The position numbers and the translations under genes were made by a program. A stretch of 64,000 nucleotides of DNA from Methanobrevibacter smithii ATCC 35061 (GTDB taxonomy: Archaea; Methanobacteriota; Methanobacteria; Methanobacteriales; Methanobacteriaceae), in the NCBI RefSeq assembly GCF_000016525.1, contig NC_009515.1:397001-461000 (forward strand), given 5' to 3'. Of the stretch, positions 23,313 through 34,566 are shown piece by piece (position 1 is the first letter of the stretch; each line of letters begins with the position of its first letter). The notes beneath the pieces were generated by a model, which saw only the letters and a list, made by a program, of their open reading frames with translations, ran no database searches and had not been told where the DNA came from.

Positions 23313-25316
23313 TTAATTTTTAAGTTTTGTAAAAGTTCTGTTTGCTTTGAAAGCTTGGAACTTGTTTTTACCTTCCATATAGAACTGTGAAAAGAACTCC
23401 ACGTAATGAAGACGTAAAGAGTTAATAAATGCACCTAAAATTTGGAACAAGAAGTTTGCAATATGTCCGAATATAAATATGAAAATTGCAAGAACAATAC
23501 CAATAACTGGAATCATATCATTACATAAGTTAGTTAAGATATTTACAGTCATAGCAATACCTCCTGTAGCTAAACATAATGCTAAAAGACGAGCATAAGA
23601 CAAGACATCTCCCATAAATCCGAAAACATCCATAACTCCATAAGCTCCATTAGCATATATTAACATAGCAAGACATGCAATTATTAAAACTGCTCCAATT
23701 CCGTATCCGATCATACCTATTGCAGGCATCATAAATCCTAATACTAAAAATATAATACCGGCTTCTAAAACAAACCAGCAAAGCTGAGATCCAATAGCTT
23801 CTTTTATTTCTCCATATCTGAAATTATTGATAGCTCCAATAACAAAACCAATATTAGTATAAATTATACCAATAGCTATTGCTATTATTAAAATAGTATC
23901 TGGATGTACAAAAGCTTCAACAGCAGGCACAACAGTAGGCAACTTATAATTCAACATTCTTTGTGTGAAATCTCCTAACAAACCATTAGTTAGAAGACCC
24001 AATATAATTGCCCAAATACCACACGCTGTAAGAATATAACCGAATGATTTCATTGTATCATTGAGTTTACCCATACCCCTTACTAAAACAACACCTATGA
24101 TAGCTACAATAGCACCATAAAATGCATCAGTTAAACAGTACCCGAATAAGAACGGGAACACAACTGCTACAAAGAATGTTGGATCTATAGCATTATATCT
24201 TACTGGAGAATACATATCCACAAGAACCTCATAAGGTTTTACATAACCTTTATTAGTTTGTAAAATAGGTACATCTTCATCATCAGTACCTTCAACATCA
24301 ATTAATTCAAAGGTACAATGTCCATCAGAACTTTTTTCTACTAATTGCTCAACTTTATCAGTATCTTTAACAGGTACCCATGCTTCTAACATATAGGTAT
24401 CTTTTGTTTGAACAAAAGCAGCAAGTATTTCATTCTTTTCTTTTTCATTTTCTAATTCTTCTTTAAGAGATAAAATATCGTCATCCCATCTTTCAGCAAT
24501 AGCTCTTAAATCACTTTTAGCTGAATTACGTTCAGATTCTATTGTTACCAATCTAGAATCAGCACTTGAGATAATTTGCTGTGGAGTTCCCTCAACATTG
24601 GAAACTTCAACTCTCTCAAAGTCAAATTTACGAAGTGTTGAATAAACATCTTCGCCGAATTCTTTTAAAGTCACTACGATAATATTTGCAGTTTCTTTAT
24701 CATCATTAGGGACTATAAAAACATCTAATTCATCAGTCAATTTACTTAAGTTACTTTCAATTTCTGAAGCAGACTCAGCATTAATCCTACCAACAGTTAT
24801 GGAAGTGTACTTAGAATCTTTTAAAAGAGCCAAGTCCATGTCTAAATTATATAAACGCTTAGCTAAACTTTTATTAGAAGTCAATACACTTGTTTCAGAG
24901 TCGAGTGCGGAAAATTTACCTTCAATAACTTTTGTTTCACTTTCAACTTGAGCCAAAAGGTCTTCTGCTTTATTTATTAAAGCTTCAGTATCTAAATCCC
25001 CAACTTCTTTTTGAATAGGCATTTCTGGACTAATAAAAGACTTTATTGTGTCTTTGATCCCATGGCCTTCGGATAAAGAATTTCCTAATAGTTCAGAAAT
25101 AGCACTTGTTTTCATTAAAAGTGAAGATAACTTACCAGTGAAAGCAGATGCTTTTGAAGGAGTTACTAACTCCGCTAATTCAGGATCTTGCTGAATACTA
25201 TCAGAAATCTCGTTGATTTGTACTAATCCTTGTTCGTGGAGTGCACTAACAGTAGGGGATATGTACTCATCAAGAGTAACGATTCTAATTTTACGCATTC
25301 TAGCTGTCTTGAACAT
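23313..25316 (-). CDS. atpI: A-type ATP synthase subunit I (a-subunit)
   Basis: About 667 residues. The N-terminal cytoplasmic half is a long coiled coil (about residues 80-350) that joins the peripheral stalks. The C-terminal half has about seven or eight membrane helices beside the rotor, including PFLFGYCLTDAFYG and SYARLLALCLATGGIAM, where the essential Arg of the ion channel sits. The frame is open to 25364, but the ATG at 25316 follows GTGAG at the right distance and lies just after the atpH stop, so I take that as the start. Confidence 0.94.
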   Translation of the reverse strand: MFKTARMRKIRIVTLDEYISPTVSALHEQGLVQINEISDSIQQDPELAELVTPSKASAFTGKLSSLLMKTSAISELLGNSLSEGHGIKDTIKSFISPEMPIQKEVGDLDTEALINKAEDLLAQVESETKVIEGKFSALDSETSVLTSNKSLAKRLYNLDMDLALLKDSKYTSITVGRINAESASEIESNLSKLTDELDVFIVPNDDKETANIIVVTLKEFGEDVYSTLRKFDFERVEVSNVEGTPQQIISSADSRLVTIESERNSAKSDLRAIAERWDDDILSLKEELENEKEKNEILAAFVQTKDTYMLEAWVPVKDTDKVEQLVEKSSDGHCTFELIDVEGTDDEDVPILQTNKGYVKPYEVLVDMYSPVRYNAIDPTFFVAVVFPFLFGYCLTDAFYGAIVAIIGVVLVRGMGKLNDTMKSFGYILTACGIWAIILGLLTNGLLGDFTQRMLNYKLPTVVPAVEAFVHPDTILIIAIAIGIIYTNIGFVIGAINNFRYGEIKEAIGSQLCWFVLEAGIIFLVLGFMMPAIGMIGYGIGAVLIIACLAMLIYANGAYGVMDVFGFMGDVLSYARLLALCLATGGIAMTVNILTNLCNDMIPVIGIVLAIFIFIFGHIANFLFQILGAFINSLRLHYVEFFSQFYMEGKNKFQAFKANRTFTKLKN

Positions 25317-25326
25317 TAATCTCACA

Positions 25327-25641
25327 CTATAAAACATTTTTGACAATAATAGAAGCAGCATCATCTACATTTGCCATAGCTTTTTCTTTTAAGGAAGCTA
25401 CATTAGCTTCTCCATCTTTAGCAATAGATTGTGCTTCTTTTTTAGCTTTGTCTTCTGCATCAAAAACAGTATTTTTAGCTTCTTCTTCTGCTGCTTTTTT
25501 TGCCTCATTTATAATATTTTCAGCATTTATTTTTGATTCATTTATCATGTCCACAGATTTGGACTCTGAATCAAGAATAAGTTGTTCAGCATCAGATTCA
25601 GCTTTTTTTATCATTGCGATAGCTTCTGATATCTCTGCCAT
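25327..25641 (-). CDS. atpH: A-type ATP synthase subunit H
   Basis: 104 residues, almost wholly an Ala/Glu/Lys/Asp coiled coil (for example AMIKKAESDAEQLILDSES). It pairs with subunit E in the peripheral stalk. This is the first gene of the operon; GGTGAT precedes the ATG and the TATA box lies about 40-50 bases upstream. Confidence 0.92.
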   Translation of the reverse strand: MAEISEAIAMIKKAESDAEQLILDSESKSVDMINESKINAENIINEAKKAAEEEAKNTVFDAEDKAKKEAQSIAKDGEANVASLKEKAMANVDDAASIIVKNVL

Positions 25642-27016: not shown

Positions 27017-27523
27017 CTAAATATATTCAACAAATTCATCAATTTCTTTTCTTGGAGTGTCTCTTGGTTCTGCATTTCCATATCCCAAAGGAGTAAACAA
27101 TACAGGAACTTCATTATCATTTAAATTTAAAAATTCTCTGGCCTTATCAGCTTTAAATGCTGCAATGTAACAGGTTCCAAGTCCAACATTAGTAGCTGCC
27201 AAAATAATATGGTCCATTACAATAGTTGCATCAATATCAGCTATGTTCTTTCCGTCCCAAGGTCTTGTCCATGCTTCATCAACATTAGCTACAACACATA
27301 ATACATAAGGAGCTTCCACAAACCATTTAGCCCCATAAATTTCAGACAAAGATTCTTTATTTTTTTTAGTGTCAATTACAAACACTTTAAAAGGCTGGTT
27401 ATTCACTCCTGTCGGAGCTATTGTAGCTGCTTTCAATACATATTCAAGTTTTTCATCTTCAACTTCCTTGTCCAAATATCCTCTTACACTATACCTTTTA
27501 TTAATTACATCATCAAAATCCAT
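27017..27523 (-). CDS. Nitroreductase-family flavoprotein
   Basis: 168 residues. The N-terminal FDDVINKRYSVRGYLDKEV supplies the FMN-phosphate-binding Arg residues, APTGVNNQPFKVFVI is the conserved second motif, and the C-terminal LGYGNAEPRDTPRK closes the fold. Family members use FMN and NAD(P)H to reduce nitro compounds, quinones or enones. It lies directly downstream of the citrate-synthase-like gene, five bases away, so it may act in that pathway or in redox balance; that link is inferred from position. Confidence 0.85.
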   Translation of the reverse strand: MDFDDVINKRYSVRGYLDKEVEDEKLEYVLKAATIAPTGVNNQPFKVFVIDTKKNKESLSEIYGAKWFVEAPYVLCVVANVDEAWTRPWDGKNIADIDATIVMDHIILAATNVGLGTCYIAAFKADKAREFLNLNDNEVPVLFTPLGYGNAEPRDTPRKEIDEFVEYI

Positions 27524-27528
27524 ATTAT

Positions 27529-28335
27529 CTACCTTCCAGGACCGTCATAAACAATGTCGTCAATGTCACAAAAACGTCTAAATTCATCTTCATCAATAGT
27601 TTCTTCATGAATATGAGCAATAATGCCCGGAACACGGCCAATAATAAATACCCCCAATCCTAATTTTGGGTCAAAACCTAAATCAGACAAAATTGCTGCA
27701 TTTGCCCCGTCAACATTTAAACGAATGTTTTTCTTTTGATAAAGCAAATCTTCAATGGCCAATGCCAATTTAGTATGGGGGCCAACACATCCTTCTTTTA
27801 TAACAAGTTCCATTAATTTATCTGCTCTTGGATCAGCATTATGATATCTGTGTCCAAAACCAGGAATTTTAGTATTTTTAGAGACAATATATTCATTGTA
27901 TAAATCAATAGCCAAACTAGCTATCTGTTTATTGTCAATATCTGCATCTCCGGTTAACATTAAAGAGTCAATCTTGGACTGGTATAATTCCATGGTTTTT
28001 TCAATAGCTCCTGCATGTTTATGTCCAAATGACAATAGCGCACCAGCTACAGCAGCATTTAACGGAGAACCTGAAGAGGCAACAAGTCTTGCTGTTTGTG
28101 TACTTGGAGGAGTGGCTCCGTGATCACAAAAAGAAACTAAAACATGATTAAATAATTTTCCCTCTTTTATTGAAGGCAATCTCCCTTTCAGAAGAAGAAA
28201 AACCATATCACTATATCTAATTTTTTCAATTAAATCTCTTTGATTGTATCCCCTAGTAACAATTTTATCAGGTTCCACTTTAGAAATAGCTGTTCTTAGT
28301 GAATGCTCGTTAATTTTAAAATTATTTTCCGACAT
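27529..28335 (-). CDS. Citrate-synthase-fold enzyme, citryl-CoA-lyase-like
   Basis: 268 residues, far shorter than citrate synthase (about 370-430) and close to the short citryl-CoA lyase type. Conserved features are SSGSPLNAAVAGALLSFG with the following HKHAG (active-site His), PGFGHRYHNADPRADKL (second His), and the late FIIGRVPGIIAHIHEE with the substrate-binding Arg. It could cleave citryl-CoA or a methylcitryl-like thioester to an oxo acid and an acyl-CoA, or run in reverse. Next to hydratase and PrpD-like genes, a cleavage role in an organic-acid pathway is plausible. Confidence 0.75.
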   Translation of the reverse strand: MSENNFKINEHSLRTAISKVEPDKIVTRGYNQRDLIEKIRYSDMVFLLLKGRLPSIKEGKLFNHVLVSFCDHGATPPSTQTARLVASSGSPLNAAVAGALLSFGHKHAGAIEKTMELYQSKIDSLMLTGDADIDNKQIASLAIDLYNEYIVSKNTKIPGFGHRYHNADPRADKLMELVIKEGCVGPHTKLALAIEDLLYQKKNIRLNVDGANAAILSDLGFDPKLGLGVFIIGRVPGIIAHIHEETIDEDEFRRFCDIDDIVYDGPGR

Positions 28336-28381
28336 TGTTTTAATTTCCTCAATTTAATAATTAAAATATAATTATAATCCA

Positions 28382-29254
28382 TTATAAATGTAATGTTGCA
28401 ACTCTCGGTTCTACAAAACAGGAAGGTCTGACTGAAACAATTCTAACACCGCTTGCCCTTTGATTACCTACATTAACAAATGAACCTAAAACTGTGGTTT
28501 TTCCACCAAAACCCAATGGTCCGATATTTGTTTCGTTTAATTTCTGAGTTACATAATTTTCCAAATCGCTTTGGGAATCTAAATTTCCATAAACAATTGA
28601 TTTTAACAGTAATGATGATGCCTCATAATGTGTACGGCCAATACCAACAGCAGGAACAGAAGGAGTGCATCCCAACATTTTAAGTGATTCGCTTAACCAG
28701 CCGATAGCTGTACCAATTACATTTTCAATTGATCTTTTATGATATACCCTATATGTCTTTGCCCTTATTTCAGGACCTCCTCCTTCCAGTATAAAATGGA
28801 TGTTTAAAGTGTCCGGAGAAATATTTCTTTTATATGTTGAATCCTCACTGAAAGAATCTATTAAAAAGGATGCTGCTTTCATCTGCCCAGGACGGTTATA
28901 CAATCCTTTTGATTGTTCAATTCGCTCAACATCATTACCTTTAACAGCCATAGGGCGGGCAGGCAAATTATTTAATCCTCTTTCAATTCCCTCATTAATC
29001 TGAGCTATTAACTCCCCTGTGATTTCTCTTTTTTCACCTATTTCAATGATTACATGAGGAATTCCTGTATCATCACATAAAGGGAATTTGGTCTTACTGG
29101 CTACTTTATAATTTTCTAAAATTTGATTTAAAGCCCACAAAGCATTTTCATTATCTTCAACAGAAATGGCTTTTTTTAATGCATTGAATTTATCTTCAGA
29201 GAGATTTGTACTGGCTTTAATTATTGCATTTGAAACATCTTCTATGATATCCAT
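28382..29254 (-). CDS. Class I fumarase/tartrate-dehydratase alpha-type subunit
   Basis: 290 residues. The frame is open to 29326, but the ATG at 29254 follows GAGTGATTAT and lies four bases after the preceding stop, so that start is preferred. Conserved pieces of the iron-sulfur hydro-lyase alpha domain are FPLCDDTGIPHVIIEIG (cluster Cys), GGGPEIRAKTYRV, LGCTPSVPAVGIGRTHYEA (second Cys) and GPLGFGGKTTVLG. The enzyme adds or removes water from a hydroxy acid. No beta-subunit gene occurs in this window, so it must pair with one elsewhere. Confidence 0.8.
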   Translation of the reverse strand: MDIIEDVSNAIIKASTNLSEDKFNALKKAISVEDNENALWALNQILENYKVASKTKFPLCDDTGIPHVIIEIGEKREITGELIAQINEGIERGLNNLPARPMAVKGNDVERIEQSKGLYNRPGQMKAASFLIDSFSEDSTYKRNISPDTLNIHFILEGGGPEIRAKTYRVYHKRSIENVIGTAIGWLSESLKMLGCTPSVPAVGIGRTHYEASSLLLKSIVYGNLDSQSDLENYVTQKLNETNIGPLGFGGKTTVLGSFVNVGNQRASGVRIVSVRPSCFVEPRVATLHL

Positions 29255-29258
29255 ATAA

Positions 29259-30161
29259 TCACTCAGGAATAGATAAATCATTAGATCCTTTAGGAGAAGA
29301 TATTGCATCACTATAATATTGGTCAATCATTCTTTTGACCAGTTTAACCTGTTTAATACGAGCAATAGCTTCTTTTTCAGAAGTATCCCAATTATGAGAC
29401 TGTGCTACTGAACCTCCTGTTTTTAAATATACTGGAGAAGCTACTTTAATAATCTTCGGAACTTCATAATGTCTGATAAATCCGCCAGTTGATTTCGGAT
29501 TTTCAGTATGCAAATCTAAAGGCATATACACTGCTTTACGAATAGCTGCAATCATAGGAATTTGCAAATCTCTAACTGGATTGAAAGAATTAAGACCGTT
29601 TTCTTCAAGTAATTTTGCAGATGCTGGATTTCCATGTCCAGTATGTGCAGACATTTTGAAATGAAGTGATTTCGGAAGTTCACCTGCTTTTCTCATCTGG
29701 TTTAAAGTCCAAAGTAAACCCTCATCATATAATAATATTCCACGAACTCCCAAATCGGCAGCTCTTTTAACGTCTTCAATTGCATAAACTAAATTGTCAT
29801 ATCCTCTTAAGCGATATCCTATCCTGCTTCCTTCCTTAGTATGGACAGTTGCACTGGTATCATAGGTAGCTCTTGGACCTACAGATAAAAAAAGTTCACA
29901 TTCATATTTTTTAGCCAGGTCAACCATTTCTGTAATTTCTTCATCAGTAAGCAGCATTATTCCTTTGGTTTGAGTAATACGATGAATAGTTATTTCATTT
30001 TTAGAAGCTTCCTTAAGTAAGGTATCCATTATTTTTGGAGATTGTATTCCTGGAACCTCAAAACGATACTGTCCTCCATCATTAAAACGTTTAAATGATT
30101 CAAAATCGCCATAAGCTCTTTTAATTCCAAGCTGTTCCAAGAATTCTTCAGTTTTTTTCAT
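29259..30161 (-). CDS. TIM-barrel protein resembling U32 peptidases
   Basis: 300 residues with alternating strand and helix pattern of a TIM barrel: ITIHRITQTKGIMLL, ECELFLSVGPRATYDTS, GVRGILLYDEGLLWTL, HFKMSAHTGHGNPAS and NSFNPVRDLQIPMIAAI. It recalls the U32 collagenase-like family, but I do not see the complete U32 signature. Acidic and His residues at strand ends suggest an enzyme. It sits between the PrpD-like and hydratase genes with gaps of four to five bases, so it is probably part of the same pathway. Confidence 0.55.
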   Translation of the reverse strand: MKKTEEFLEQLGIKRAYGDFESFKRFNDGGQYRFEVPGIQSPKIMDTLLKEASKNEITIHRITQTKGIMLLTDEEITEMVDLAKKYECELFLSVGPRATYDTSATVHTKEGSRIGYRLRGYDNLVYAIEDVKRAADLGVRGILLYDEGLLWTLNQMRKAGELPKSLHFKMSAHTGHGNPASAKLLEENGLNSFNPVRDLQIPMIAAIRKAVYMPLDLHTENPKSTGGFIRHYEVPKIIKVASPVYLKTGGSVAQSHNWDTSEKEAIARIKQVKLVKRMIDQYYSDAISSPKGSNDLSIPE

Positions 30162-30166
30162 AGTAT

Positions 30167-31564
30167 CTACTCATTTAATGTTTCCATAAGTTGTTTTATA
30201 GAATAATCTTCAATATTATCAACAACAAGCAATTTATTTAAATCAAAATCAGGATTCAAACTTTTGAATTTGTCAATTAAATCTTTTAATTGATATGGAT
30301 TTTCAAAATCACCTTTTGGCAATAATGTAATATTTTGGAAAATTCCCCCTCTGAAAGATTCATCCAACTTAATAATAACATTTGATGGTCTTTTATTTGG
30401 ATATAGCTCATCCAATCCACTATCAGAAACAATGATTATTTTACTGGCCAGATTCTTAATACTGTTAACTTTATCAACTGTTGAATAGCTATCAAGCAGG
30501 CCAAATTCAATTAACTGATTTAAATCATCCAAATCAATTTCACCACAAACAAGCATAATGGCCACTGCATAAGGCAAACTCTGTTTTAATTCTTCGACAT
30601 TTTTCGGATTATAATTATCATGTTTAGCAGCTACATCATATGTTTTGATAATCACATTTCCAATATGCTCATACTCTTCACCTATACTTGCCTTTAGTTT
30701 TAAAACAGTATCTATTGAAGAGTGCAAATGTCTGCAAAACGGATATTTTTTAAAGTAAATGTCCCTGACCCTAACTTTACCCATATTTTTTAGAGCAACA
30801 TCTAAAGAAAAATCACTATCTGACAAAACCATTGTTTTTAAAAAACCTTCATCCCCATCAAAAATTGTTCCGGCACCAGTGAATCCGTTTAAAGCCAAAA
30901 ATGCAGATATTAATCCATTATAAACAGCTTTTCCAACATGAAGAACTTTGCCCATACTCCCATTATGGTCAGACTCTAAAAGACCTGCAGCCTGAGTTCC
31001 ACACAAACCTAAAGCATTTAATGTTTGGTTTTCATCAAGATTAAGCAATTTAGAAGCAACAGCACCTGCAACAAATGTTCCGACAGTTCCTGTTGTATGA
31101 AATCCATTGTTTCTATGTTGAGGATTGACAATTTGGCCCAGCATTATTCCGACTTCATAACCTGCAATAACCGCTTCTAAAAAAGATTTGCCGTCCAAAT
31201 CATAAGCTTCACTAATAGCCAAGGCAGTTGGGAAAATAACTGCACCCAAATGAATTTGTGCGCCTCTATGACCATCATCCAATTCCAAAACATGAGCTGA
31301 AATACCATTTAAAAAACCTGCATTCAGCAGATTTGTTTTAAAATTGGGCATACCAATAACAGAAGATTCCAGCTCAAACTCCATATTTCCAAAAAATAGT
31401 TCACTAATCGTATTGAAAGCTATTCTAGAAGATTCTTCATTTACTCCCCTATATGTGACTCCAAAAAAATCAATAAATGCTGCTTTTACCACATTAAGGG
31501 TTTCTTTTGATGCCTGTTCATAACGATAGTTTGAAATAAATTTGGAAATATTTTGTAAAAACAT
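30167..31564 (-). CDS. MmgE/PrpD-family protein (2-methylcitrate-dehydratase-like)
   Basis: 465 residues, the usual MmgE/PrpD length. The helical first domain includes AHVLELDDGHRGAQIHLGAV and AVIAGYEVGIMLGQIVNPQ, and the later RVRDIYFKKYPFCRHLHSSID matches the conserved active-site region. Known relatives dehydrate 2-methylcitrate, isomerise cis-aconitate to itaconate, or act on tartrate-like acids. With a citryl-CoA-lyase-type enzyme and a hydratase beside it, the substrate may be a branched or hydroxylated tricarboxylate. Confidence 0.82.
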   Translation of the reverse strand: MFLQNISKFISNYRYEQASKETLNVVKAAFIDFFGVTYRGVNEESSRIAFNTISELFFGNMEFELESSVIGMPNFKTNLLNAGFLNGISAHVLELDDGHRGAQIHLGAVIFPTALAISEAYDLDGKSFLEAVIAGYEVGIMLGQIVNPQHRNNGFHTTGTVGTFVAGAVASKLLNLDENQTLNALGLCGTQAAGLLESDHNGSMGKVLHVGKAVYNGLISAFLALNGFTGAGTIFDGDEGFLKTMVLSDSDFSLDVALKNMGKVRVRDIYFKKYPFCRHLHSSIDTVLKLKASIGEEYEHIGNVIIKTYDVAAKHDNYNPKNVEELKQSLPYAVAIMLVCGEIDLDDLNQLIEFGLLDSYSTVDKVNSIKNLASKIIIVSDSGLDELYPNKRPSNVIIKLDESFRGGIFQNITLLPKGDFENPYQLKDLIDKFKSLNPDFDLNKLLVVDNIEDYSIKQLMETLNE

Positions 31565-31628
31565 AAAACACCTTAATAATTAAATTGTAAAAATAGTCTT
31601 AAATAGTTAACTTAAATGGTGTTAAAAA

Positions 31629-32120
31629 TTAACACCAAGGTGTACCGCTTAGAACTAAAACTATGTGTGCAATTAATGCAGATCCAAGGTAAGTTCCAGT
31701 AATGATACAAATAGTTACTATCATACCTCTCCAACCCATAGCCTTGAACTGATCCCAGTTTTTACCAATACCAATACCAACATATGCCAAAAACACGGTT
31801 ACAATAGACAATAACTCTACTTGTCCCACATATTTAACTACAAATGGAGAAGTCGGTACCATAGGTATGGAAACTGCAATACCAATAAGACTTATGTAAA
31901 TAATTGAAGAGACATTAAATGGCAAATATCTCTCAAGCAATAAACCGGCCAAAGTTATAATAGATAAAATCAACATTCCAATAAGGGAATCAGATATCGG
32001 ATGTTTATAACCTATCCAATTTCCGACAACTGTGATAACTGAAAATATAACCAATAATAAAATCCAATTAATTATACCATGTGTTGAAACTGTTTCTGAA
32101 CCGTCAATTACATCAACCAT
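31629..32120 (-). CDS. Small polytopic membrane protein, partner of the upstream permease-like gene
   Basis: 163 residues with about five membrane helices (near 18-34, 45-62, 72-95, 100-118 and 133-158). I do not recognise a family. Its start overlaps the stop of the preceding DUF3100-like gene by one base, so they should be made in fixed ratio and may form a two-part transporter. The following PrpD-like gene starts 64 bases later. Transport of the pathway substrate is inferred from context. Confidence 0.6.
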   Translation of the reverse strand: MVDVIDGSETVSTHGIINWILLLVIFSVITVVGNWIGYKHPISDSLIGMLILSIITLAGLLLERYLPFNVSSIIYISLIGIAVSIPMVPTSPFVVKYVGQVELLSIVTVFLAYVGIGIGKNWDQFKAMGWRGMIVTICIITGTYLGSALIAHIVLVLSGTPWC

Positions 32121-33031
32121 TATTTTTCCTCCTCTAAATGAGAAACAGAAGTTTCTCTTCCAATTTTAGGTTCAAGCCAAGCATATAATTTTTGAGCTAA
32201 TGGAATAGCTAAAAATATACAGAAATAAATTCCAACACAGAAGGAAATTAAATTACTGAATCCTGCAAATGCCTGAATATTTGTACTCATACTTGCCGGG
32301 AAAGCATTTAACAATGGAGCTAATGCGGCTGCATTCATACTTGCACTGCCTACCCCTGTTGCCATTGCAAATGCATATGGATGAAGTGGTAAAACTGATA
32401 CACATAAACATGACAGAAAACTGATGTATAACGTTCCAATAACAGTTCCAATAATAAATACTGTTAAAACTCCCCTAGTTTCTGCAGAATCAAATCCAAA
32501 TTTATCAATAACAACTGCCACATTGGTTTCACGACCAATAGAATTAGTCATACCAATAGTTTCTTTTTTAAATCCTAAAAGCAATGCCACAGGAAGTGCT
32601 AAAAATACAGTTCCCAAATTACCAAACTCCTGTAAAACTAAAGCAGGACCAACATCAAGTAAAATATGGAATGACTGACCACTAGCTACTGCTAATTTTG
32701 CAAGCAACGGTCCTATAAATAACAGCATTGCACTTTCTGCAATTTTAGATTGTTTTTTAGTAATCCATTTAACTGGTTTTAATAAGAACAAAGCCAAACC
32801 AATAACCATTGCATATAACAACGGCATAATTACAACACAAATGTCTTTTGTAAGATTGAATTCAACAGGTCCTATAAATTCGGAAATAATAACCAAAAAA
32901 AGCACAGTAATATGTAATCTATAATCTTTCCATGGTGCTTTCTTTAAAATAGTTTTATCAGTCTTATCACGATATATGTGCTCAGTTCCCTTAACTTTTT
33001 CGTTTTTATCGCTAATCTGTGCCCACCCCAA
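32120..33031 (-). CDS. DUF3100-like polytopic membrane protein
   Basis: About 303 residues with eight or nine hydrophobic segments after a charged N-terminal ~35 residues. Glycine/alanine-rich stretches (AFAMATGVGSASMNAAALAPLL; shown here near residues 218-239) resemble carriers with a re-entrant substrate site. It matches my memory of DUF3100 proteins. The TTG at 33031 is the furthest start, but GGGGTGGG right after it could instead be a ribosome binding site, so the true start is uncertain. First gene of a six- to eight-gene minus-strand run. Confidence 0.6.
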   Translation of the reverse strand: MGWAQISDKNEKVKGTEHIYRDKTDKTILKKAPWKDYRLHITVLFLVIISEFIGPVEFNLTKDICVVIMPLLYAMVIGLALFLLKPVKWITKKQSKIAESAMLLFIGPLLAKLAVASGQSFHILLDVGPALVLQEFGNLGTVFLALPVALLLGFKKETIGMTNSIGRETNVAVVIDKFGFDSAETRGVLTVFIIGTVIGTLYISFLSCLCVSVLPLHPYAFAMATGVGSASMNAAALAPLLNAFPASMSTNIQAFAGFSNLISFCVGIYFCIFLAIPLAQKLYAWLEPKIGRETSVSHLEEEK

Positions 33032-33239: not shown

Positions 33240-34487
33240 CTATAAATCCATCCTACAAATAGGTTTTGACAAATGACGCCTAGCAGAAACTGGTGTTTCA
33301 TAAAACTGACCATTTTTTAATTTTCTGAAAATTTTAATAGGAACTTTTTTATTATCATTAATTTTATTTCCGCATTTTTTACATTTAAATCCCTTATTTT
33401 TTCCAGCAGAAGTCATTCTTTTTCCACATTCACAAATAGGGTTTTTATATTCAACATCATTTAATTTAACAACTTGAAACTTTTCAATATTAAATGTATT
33501 TTGTTCTCCAATTCCCCCGAAGAGTTTAACAATATCCCCCGGTCTTAAATCAGATACAAGTTTTCTAAAATTTTTTGTTGGTTCATATGCTCCGCATTCA
33601 ATCTCACCAGAATCATCAAAAATGTAAAAAAACATATGGCCACCATCAATAATTGTTGGTTTGTTTTTTACAGTTCCCACAACTTCATAGCATCCAAACT
33701 GTTTCATACTAGCTATATCATCCGTTTTTTGAATGTGCATATCAGTGTGTTGATTAGTCTTGAAAATGCAATAATTTTCCACAGGTTCTTCAACCAGAAC
33801 TATTTTTTTAGCTCTCTCAAGAGCCTCAACAGTGTTTGATCTGATACCATACAAAACAGGACATGGAGTTTTAGGTTCTATAGCTATATAATCTTCACTA
33901 TAATCAACATTTTCAAAAGTTTCAGGATAAGTTTCCCTATCCATCAAATAAACGGAATCATAATCAATGTGTCTTTTAGTACCATAATTTTCAGGCACCC
34001 TATACGCCAACAGTTCATAAGTGAAATCCTCCAAAGGCAGCCCAATAGCTGCAATAGATCCAATAATTCCCCTTCCTTTCTTAAACTTATGAAGTTCACA
34101 GCCGATAGAATTTCCAAATTCTTCAGCTTCCTTAATTGTGATAAATGAATAAATAGCCTTAAATGAATATTCAACCATTTCATCAGTTATTTCACCACCA
34201 TAAAATACAACACCAGGATTTGTATTATCACAGTCAAACATAGCTAATTTTTCCACTTCATCCAAAACTATTTTCTTAGCTAAATCAGATTTATCATCAT
34301 TTAATATTTTAAAAGCAACACCGCCGTTTCCCCGTGTTTTGAATCTTGCAAATGGATTTAATCTAATTAAACGAGGACAACCAACAATTTCAATACCTAC
34401 TTCCTTTAATTTATCAATAATATGGCAGGCCAAATAAGTAGTACACATACCGTCTGGAGAGTCAGTATCATCAATCCCAATATGCAA
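33240..34487 (-). CDS. tiaS: tRNA(Ile2) agmatinylcytidine synthetase
   Basis: About 415 residues. It opens with LHIGIDDTDSPDGMCTTYL, the diagnostic ATP-binding start of TiaS, then an OB-fold region around residues 270-350 and a C-terminal zinc ribbon (CECGKRM and CKKCG). TiaS modifies C34 of the AUA-decoding tRNA-Ile with agmatine and is essential for reading AUA in archaea. The frame is open from a GTG at 34505, but that GTG is part of an AGGTGAT site; the TTG at 34487 is the preferred start. Confidence 0.93.
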   Translation of the reverse strand: MHIGIDDTDSPDGMCTTYLACHIIDKLKEVGIEIVGCPRLIRLNPFARFKTRGNGGVAFKILNDDKSDLAKKIVLDEVEKLAMFDCDNTNPGVVFYGGEITDEMVEYSFKAIYSFITIKEAEEFGNSIGCELHKFKKGRGIIGSIAAIGLPLEDFTYELLAYRVPENYGTKRHIDYDSVYLMDRETYPETFENVDYSEDYIAIEPKTPCPVLYGIRSNTVEALERAKKIVLVEEPVENYCIFKTNQHTDMHIQKTDDIASMKQFGCYEVVGTVKNKPTIIDGGHMFFYIFDDSGEIECGAYEPTKNFRKLVSDLRPGDIVKLFGGIGEQNTFNIEKFQVVKLNDVEYKNPICECGKRMTSAGKNKGFKCKKCGNKINDNKKVPIKIFRKLKNGQFYETPVSARRHLSKPICRMDL

Positions 34488-34566
34488 ATATTTAATTAAA
34501 ATCACCTATTATTAATATTATAAAAAACTATAATATAAACATATATTTACATAGAGGGATTAAATT

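Follow-up and report, generated by a model that had tools for sequence, protein, structure and literature searches.

The 64,000-nucleotide stretch of Methanobrevibacter smithii ATCC 35061 analyzed here (NC_009515.1, positions 397,001 to 461,000; hereafter the window) carries on its minus strand adjoining genes for four enzymes: an MmgE/PrpD-family polycarboxylate dehydratase (PrpD), a U32-like triosephosphate isomerase (TIM) barrel protein, a divergent class I hydro-lyase alpha subunit (FumA2), and a short citrate-synthase-fold enzyme (CCL). Together with an unlinked beta subunit, FumB2, these enzymes very probably represent a real biosynthetic module that is conserved across Methanobacteria and was lost as a whole in Methanosphaera. 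We infer that this module is ancestral in Methanobacteria and anabolic in direction, and we tentatively propose, on the basis of gene content and distribution, that its product may be 1,3,4,6-hexanetetracarboxylate (HTCA), the terminal acid of methanofuran-a and methanofuran-c. In methane formation from CO2, methanofuran serves as the first carrier of carbon; the pathway to its core has reportedly been worked out in Methanocaldococcus jannaschii, whose methanofuran is not known to carry the tetracarboxylate tail, and we know of no enzymes or genes assigned to the tail of the first-described methanofuran. No account of HTCA biosynthesis, and no naming of these genes, was found in the literature searched.

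A preliminary description of this DNA had reported six closely spaced genes on one strand (27529-33031), followed by a nitroreductase gene; all seven were found in place on the minus strand, between positions 27017 and 33031, with that spacing, and the family assignments hold by Pfam and NCBIfam profiles, with the U32 label being the weak one. The core consists of PrpD (30167-31564; PF03972/PF19305; preceded by a 64-base gap), the U32-like protein (29259-30161; 5-base gap), FumA2 (28382-29254; PF05681; 4-base gap), and CCL (27529-28335; PF00285 and NF004866; 46-base gap). The FumA2 start is most likely the inner ATG at 29254 and not the listed TTG at 29326, because the latter overlaps the U32-like gene and orthologues begin at the inner ATG. 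As a unit, the proposed operon stands only in part; the four enzymes form a true set, but the two membrane protein genes ahead of them and the nitroreductase gene behind them are separable later additions.

The order PrpD-U32-FumA2-CCL was identical in all 12 representatives across the class Methanobacteria, including Methanothermobacter thermautotrophicus, Methanothermus fervidus (which we take genome G001 to be), and Methanobrevibacter ruminantium, and of 52 loci surrounding PrpD relatives, 48 showed the same order; the remaining four loci were short or did not have the other genes within reach. The comparison of gene neighborhoods that had been set beforehand as a check on the preliminary description thus found the four genes together in other genomes, rather than apart. 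Among distant Methanobacteria, only the four enzymes adjoin, as a rule between the gene for TiaS and those for the A-type ATP synthase; M. thermautotrophicus has the four-enzyme core without a transporter ahead of it. The same conserved neighbors flank the set in the window, with TiaS (33240-34505, minus strand; NF040849 match) upstream, marking the site of insertion or excision, and the first A-type ATP synthase genes (23313-25641, minus strand) downstream. The U32-like protein, the most conserved of the set, was present in 129 of the 152 genomes of the class; among the 91 genomes that were at least 90% complete, it was present in 78, all non-Methanosphaera, and absent in 13, all of which carry the genus label g12 (G- and L-numbers denote genomes and compared loci, respectively). 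As g12 holds Methanosphaera stadtmanae, it is therefore Methanosphaera. The phylum is represented in this genome set by the same 152 genomes, and a phylum-wide search added nothing; a contig pattern scan built from the M. smithii protein matched only Methanobacteriaceae, with relatives from other phyla seen via plasmid records only. The four-gene set was not found in those plasmid neighborhoods of CCL and FumA2 relatives that were read. Several Methanobacteriaceae have ATPase- or transposase-like genes inserted beside or between operon genes, with the core order unbroken, at L042:6762-7952, L096:10831-12087, L037:5539-6763, and L049:11070-12374.

Class I hydro-lyases require a beta part, and the M. 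smithii genome encodes exactly two alpha and two beta subunits of this class. One of the beta genes encodes FumB2, a divergent subunit that is unlinked to the operon and located outside the window (G000:C1:891168-891665). The distribution of FumB2 orthologues through the class is that of the operon, and sequence comparisons suggest that FumB2 is the partner of the lone alpha subunit FumA2. FumA2 shares 30% identity with the canonical M. smithii fumarase alpha subunit, and FumB2 shares 36% with the canonical beta subunit. While all three cluster-cysteine motifs are kept in FumA2 (LCDDTG in 72/73, GC[TS]P in 73/73, and [SC]C[FC]VEPR in 64/73 sequences), CQDTG is changed to CDDTG in 72 of 73; CQDTG itself was found in 0/73, versus 6/6 canonical paralogues. 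FumB2, for its part, shows APTTSNK in place of GPTTSxR in all 14 sequences (GPTTSxR in 0/14, versus 3/3 canonical paralogues) and TPPVAA in place of ATGGCAA. Because the deviations in both subunits are consistent and confined to FumA2/FumB2, they suggest a substrate other than that of fumarase as well as a dedicated alpha-beta pairing. A functional link between FumB2 and the adjoining Kor/SucC genes of M. smithii was considered and dropped, as this adjacency is not conserved.

Neither an MmgE/PrpD protein nor a citrate-synthase fold was found in 20 Methanosphaera genomes. These genomes have at most one fumarase alpha subunit each, always the canonical, high-scoring one, so that FumA2 is gone; FumB2 is missing from the genus as well, with only the canonical beta subunit matched. 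In four Methanosphaera genomes TiaS directly adjoins the ATP synthase genes, i.e., the operon was cleanly excised. Two separate loci, the operon and FumB2, were thus removed together in one loss on one branch. The foreign genes inserted between core genes in L049, L096, and L037 might suggest that four unrelated genes have simply kept their order by chance or through shared transcription only; this is very improbable, however, as the order is held across the class and an unlinked fifth gene shares the pattern of presence and absence.

Both Pfam domains of PrpD (N and C) score above cut-off (214 and 91 bits versus 32), and its active-site motifs (H159, K207, and the K272/H277 type) are kept in 82-84 of 85 sequences. 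Among solved structures, its closest relatives are iminodisuccinate epimerase (2hp3), whose substrate is a tetracarboxylate, and IRG1/MmgE; against the 2-methylcitrate dehydratase model TIGR02330, PrpD scores 29 bits with a cut-off of 458. Similarly, CCL scores 451 bits against the "citryl-CoA lyase" model NF004866 (cut-off, 245) and 88 bits, against a cut-off of 421, with the methylcitrate synthase model TIGR01800; no member of the window set reaches the thresholds of the methylcitrate family models. The nearest solved structure for CCL is the citryl-CoA lyase 6hxp (E=1e-48), and its catalytic motifs (His/His/Asp, as in the citrate-synthase fold) are intact. In plasmid neighborhoods from two proteobacteria, CCL relatives are linked to coenzyme A (CoA)-transferases.

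The match of the U32-like protein to PF01136 (17.4 bits, E=0.003) falls below the cut-off of 22.4 bits, which its bacterial relatives pass. Its predicted fold is a TIM barrel with a predicted local distance difference test (pLDDT) value of 84; at template-modeling (TM) scores of about 0.5, the best PDB matches of this model include class II aldolases, a U32 protein, and 2-methylisocitrate lyase. No Pfam ICL match was found in the protein, and the likeness to methylisocitrate lyase is at the fold level only. K169 and K247, both on predicted strands, are kept in all 88 relatives checked. The modeled barrel is a probable lyase or aldolase. U32-like relatives in Thermomicrobium and Streptomyces adjoin mandelate-racemase-type proteins and sugar ATP-binding cassette transporters (L058:8906-12936; L059:9488-16843); this branch may comprise sugar-acid lyases, a context that fits an aldolase or lyase. 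A relative on an Enterobacter plasmid (L061:11914-12852) lies in a biosynthetic-looking run with an aminotransferase, iron-containing redox enzymes, an M14 peptidase, and a major facilitator superfamily exporter. The earlier proposal that a methylcitrate/aconitate-type dehydratase, a hydratase, and a citryl-CoA-type lyase act jointly is upheld by the families, the intact catalytic residues, and the strict co-occurrence, but not its further suggestion that they serve uptake and cleavage of a C5-C7 acid as a nutrient.

Within a module of this kind, CCL would join (or split) an acyl-CoA and a 2-oxo acid via a citryl-CoA-type intermediate, PrpD would dehydrate the product to an aconitate-type acid, the putative FumA2/FumB2 iron-sulfur hydro-lyase would add or remove water on a related acid, and the TIM barrel would form or break a C-C bond by aldol-type chemistry. 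For example, 2-oxoglutarate and a C5 acyl-CoA (at the level of glutaryl-CoA) could be condensed on the citrate-synthase fold to a hydroxy-tetracarboxylate with the whole C10 skeleton, which dehydration and then reduction by a further reductase would convert to HTCA, with attachment by an amide ligase; an alternative route, likewise compatible with the evidence, would include an aldol step from pyruvate, using the U32 barrel. We also tentatively propose that these enzymes may accept new ranges of substrates, with a novel two-subunit iron-sulfur hydro-lyase and a U32-like C-C lyase among them.

A number of observations favor HTCA as the product. In the Marburg strain of Methanothermobacter, 1,3,4,6-tetracarboxyhexane ranks as a major solute, and the compound also forms part of methanofuran (PMC1224877); methanofurans a and c bear terminal residues absent from other types (PMC8141765), and the 4,5,7-tricarboxyheptanoyl tail is present in a Methanothermobacter formylmethanofuran dehydrogenase structure (PMC13397495). 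The gene set is present in makers of methanofuran-a/c (M. thermautotrophicus and M. smithii), and the PrpD family is absent from makers of other types. Specifically, no PrpD family member was found in the controls M. jannaschii and Methanosarcina acetivorans, and no citrate-synthase fold in the control M. jannaschii; the methanofurans of both species are not known to carry the HTCA tail. M. smithii was reportedly found by White in 1988 to make methanofuran-c, the hydroxylated form, and the labeling of HTCA is said to have been studied in 1987 and 1994. To our knowledge, HTCA is the one unusual polycarboxylate from this group, and iminodisuccinate epimerase, the closest solved relative of PrpD, likewise has a tetracarboxylate as its substrate. 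In addition, M. thermautotrophicus has a second CCL copy beside phosphate-transport genes (L193:6110-6856 in genome G149, compared with L086:6516-7262; 99.9% identity, one mismatch in 747 bp), and genome G003 has a diverged second copy at a similar place, also beside such genes. The near identity of the M. thermautotrophicus pair suggests dosage selection or recent gene conversion, and we counted the second copy, which is in line with high flux, in favor of HTCA.

Other observations weigh against this assignment. The joint loss is a single event on a single branch, in a lineage that has, in addition, shed its molybdopterin and acetyl-CoA synthase genes. All 20 Methanosphaera genomes retain MfnB, an enzyme of methanofuran core synthesis, while the operon is gone, and Methanosphaera keeps the main enzymes of the tetrahydromethanopterin branch (PMC9723798), so that the methanofuran core is presumably still made there. 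The operon hence does not track core synthesis, as represented by MfnB, which is compatible with a role in the tail only if the tail is dispensable in Methanosphaera; with MfnB kept, we predict that Methanosphaera methanofuran should lack HTCA. The absences in the control genomes would be equally expected for any Methanobacteria-specific trait, and any polycarboxylate specific to Methanobacteria would fit the distribution equally well. Furthermore, the simplest, one-condensation route to HTCA needs no U32 lyase, and no final reductase or amide ligase was found. The nitroreductase encoded next to CCL was considered as the reductase of the pathway, a role that is unsupported because most Methanosphaera tested retain a close homologue and Methanothermobacter has no close orthologue.

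The same five genes might instead constitute a Methanobacteria-specific anabolic or housekeeping module that uses methylcitrate-type chemistry for another product, e.g., to interconvert propionyl-CoA and a 2-oxo acid or to make a tri- or tetracarboxylate solute not yet described. The repertoire lines up stepwise with PrpC, PrpD, AcnB, and PrpB, the top matches in the fold search with the U32-like protein include 2-methylisocitrate lyases, and relatives of this protein occur in sugar-acid and other biosynthetic-looking clusters; we nevertheless regard another product as somewhat unlikely, given that the neighborhoods show nothing pointing to one and that we know of no need for propionate in autotrophic Methanothermobacter. 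An aconitase bypass, in which PrpD and FumA2/FumB2 would together turn citrate made by CCL into isocitrate as a precursor of 2-oxoglutarate, is chemically possible, and no further citrate-synthase-fold match was found in M. ruminantium. Such a bypass is improbable, though, since these methanogens make 2-oxoglutarate by an incomplete reductive branch, M. smithii carries 2-oxoacid oxidoreductase and succinyl-CoA-synthetase-like genes, and Methanosphaera lives without a citrate-synthase fold.

The accessory genes ahead of the core encode a DUF3100 membrane protein (32120-33031, minus strand; PF11299), an addition of the Methanobrevibacter lineage, and a small LysO-like membrane protein (31629-32120, minus strand; weak LysO match), which overlaps the former by one base and would form the second half of a DUF3100 transporter. 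The pair looks like a two-part transporter; the predicted DUF3100 structure is poor (pLDDT 47). DUF3100 was present in 42 of 52 related loci, with two tandem copies in 27 of the 52; the pair is restricted to the Methanobrevibacter side and is not part of the operon in Methanothermobacter, Methanothermus, or other distant loci. In L089:2330-3580 (M. ruminantium) and L092:14551-15906 the two proteins are fused. Bacteria and a haloarchaeon carry the pair as a two-gene module, with M20 amidohydrolases alongside in three of four neighborhoods read; L092 echoes this bacterial pairing with an amidohydrolase (L092:12958-14184) between PrpD and the fused transporter. A weak terminator-like hairpin (31617-31637, minus strand) lies between the membrane pair and PrpD, but the total of such sites, including this one, is not above chance expectation. 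On the other side of the core, a nitroreductase-family flavoprotein gene (27017-27523, minus strand; PF00881) follows CCL after a 5-base gap; most Methanosphaera tested have a copy with 54-70% identity, and no close orthologue was found in Methanothermobacter or Methanothermus.

The membrane pair ahead of the enzymes in Methanobrevibacter, with the frequency and doubling of DUF3100, is what speaks for uptake of a hydroxy acid (itaconate, citramalate, or methylcitrate) from the environment and its cleavage as a nutrient, as the preliminary description had supposed for a C5-C7 acid. M. thermautotrophicus, however, uses CO2 as sole carbon source (PMC3087415), and because it lives on CO2 alone a catabolic role for the universal core is unlikely, which argues for anabolism. 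Since the core is universal outside Methanosphaera and occurs without a preceding transporter in this autotroph, a catabolic uptake operon was rejected as the principal interpretation. The transporter is, in addition, linked to amidohydrolases in several bacteria and in L092, and no CoA-transferase or ligase is nearby, unlike in two bacterial citryl-CoA lyase operons; we thus consider a nutritional role highly unlikely.

For the methanofuran tail, these five genes are candidates shared by all Methanobacteria, those dominant in the human gut and the rumen included, and lost only in Methanosphaera, which makes the question directly testable. Whatever the product, generic labels such as citrate synthase, fumarase alpha, and U32 peptidase are corrected in a large archaeal group, and a fumarase subunit that had stood as an orphan now has its partner named.

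Compared with known systems, the set most resembles the 2-methylcitrate cycle (PrpC, PrpD, AcnB, and PrpB), which likewise combines a citrate-synthase fold with a dehydratase of the MmgE/PrpD family, a hydratase, and a lyase built as a TIM barrel; its condensation, dehydration, hydration, and lyase steps match the four activities one-to-one, and the barrel has PrpB among its top fold matches. It differs from this cycle in that CCL is of the citryl-CoA-lyase type, the hydratase is a class I fumarase-type pair and not an aconitase, the lyase is U32-like and not of the ICL family, PrpD lies closer to iminodisuccinate epimerase and IRG1 cis-aconitate decarboxylase than to 2-methylcitrate dehydratase, and the host is a CO2-reducing methanogen. 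With the epimerase and the decarboxylase PrpD, whose dehydratase activity is a prediction, shares a family that acts on tri- and tetracarboxylates. CCL agrees with citryl-CoA lyase 6hxp in length, fold, and catalytic motifs but lacks a citryl-CoA synthetase beside it, and cleavage of citryl-CoA is predicted from its family. Like class I fumarase and tartrate dehydratase, FumA2/FumB2 has alpha and beta parts, three cluster cysteines, and the TT and K motifs of the beta part; unlike them, it shows CDDTG in FumA2 and APTTSNK and TPPVAA in FumB2, and its subunit genes are unlinked. The barrel protein shares the fold and a weak profile match with peptidase family U32, from which its sub-threshold score and metabolic context set it apart. 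Biosynthesis of the methanofuran-a/c tail, finally, accords with the set in that an operon-bearing genus, Methanothermobacter, is reported to contain HTCA and in that the HTCA skeleton is that of an alkyl-homocitrate after dehydration and reduction.

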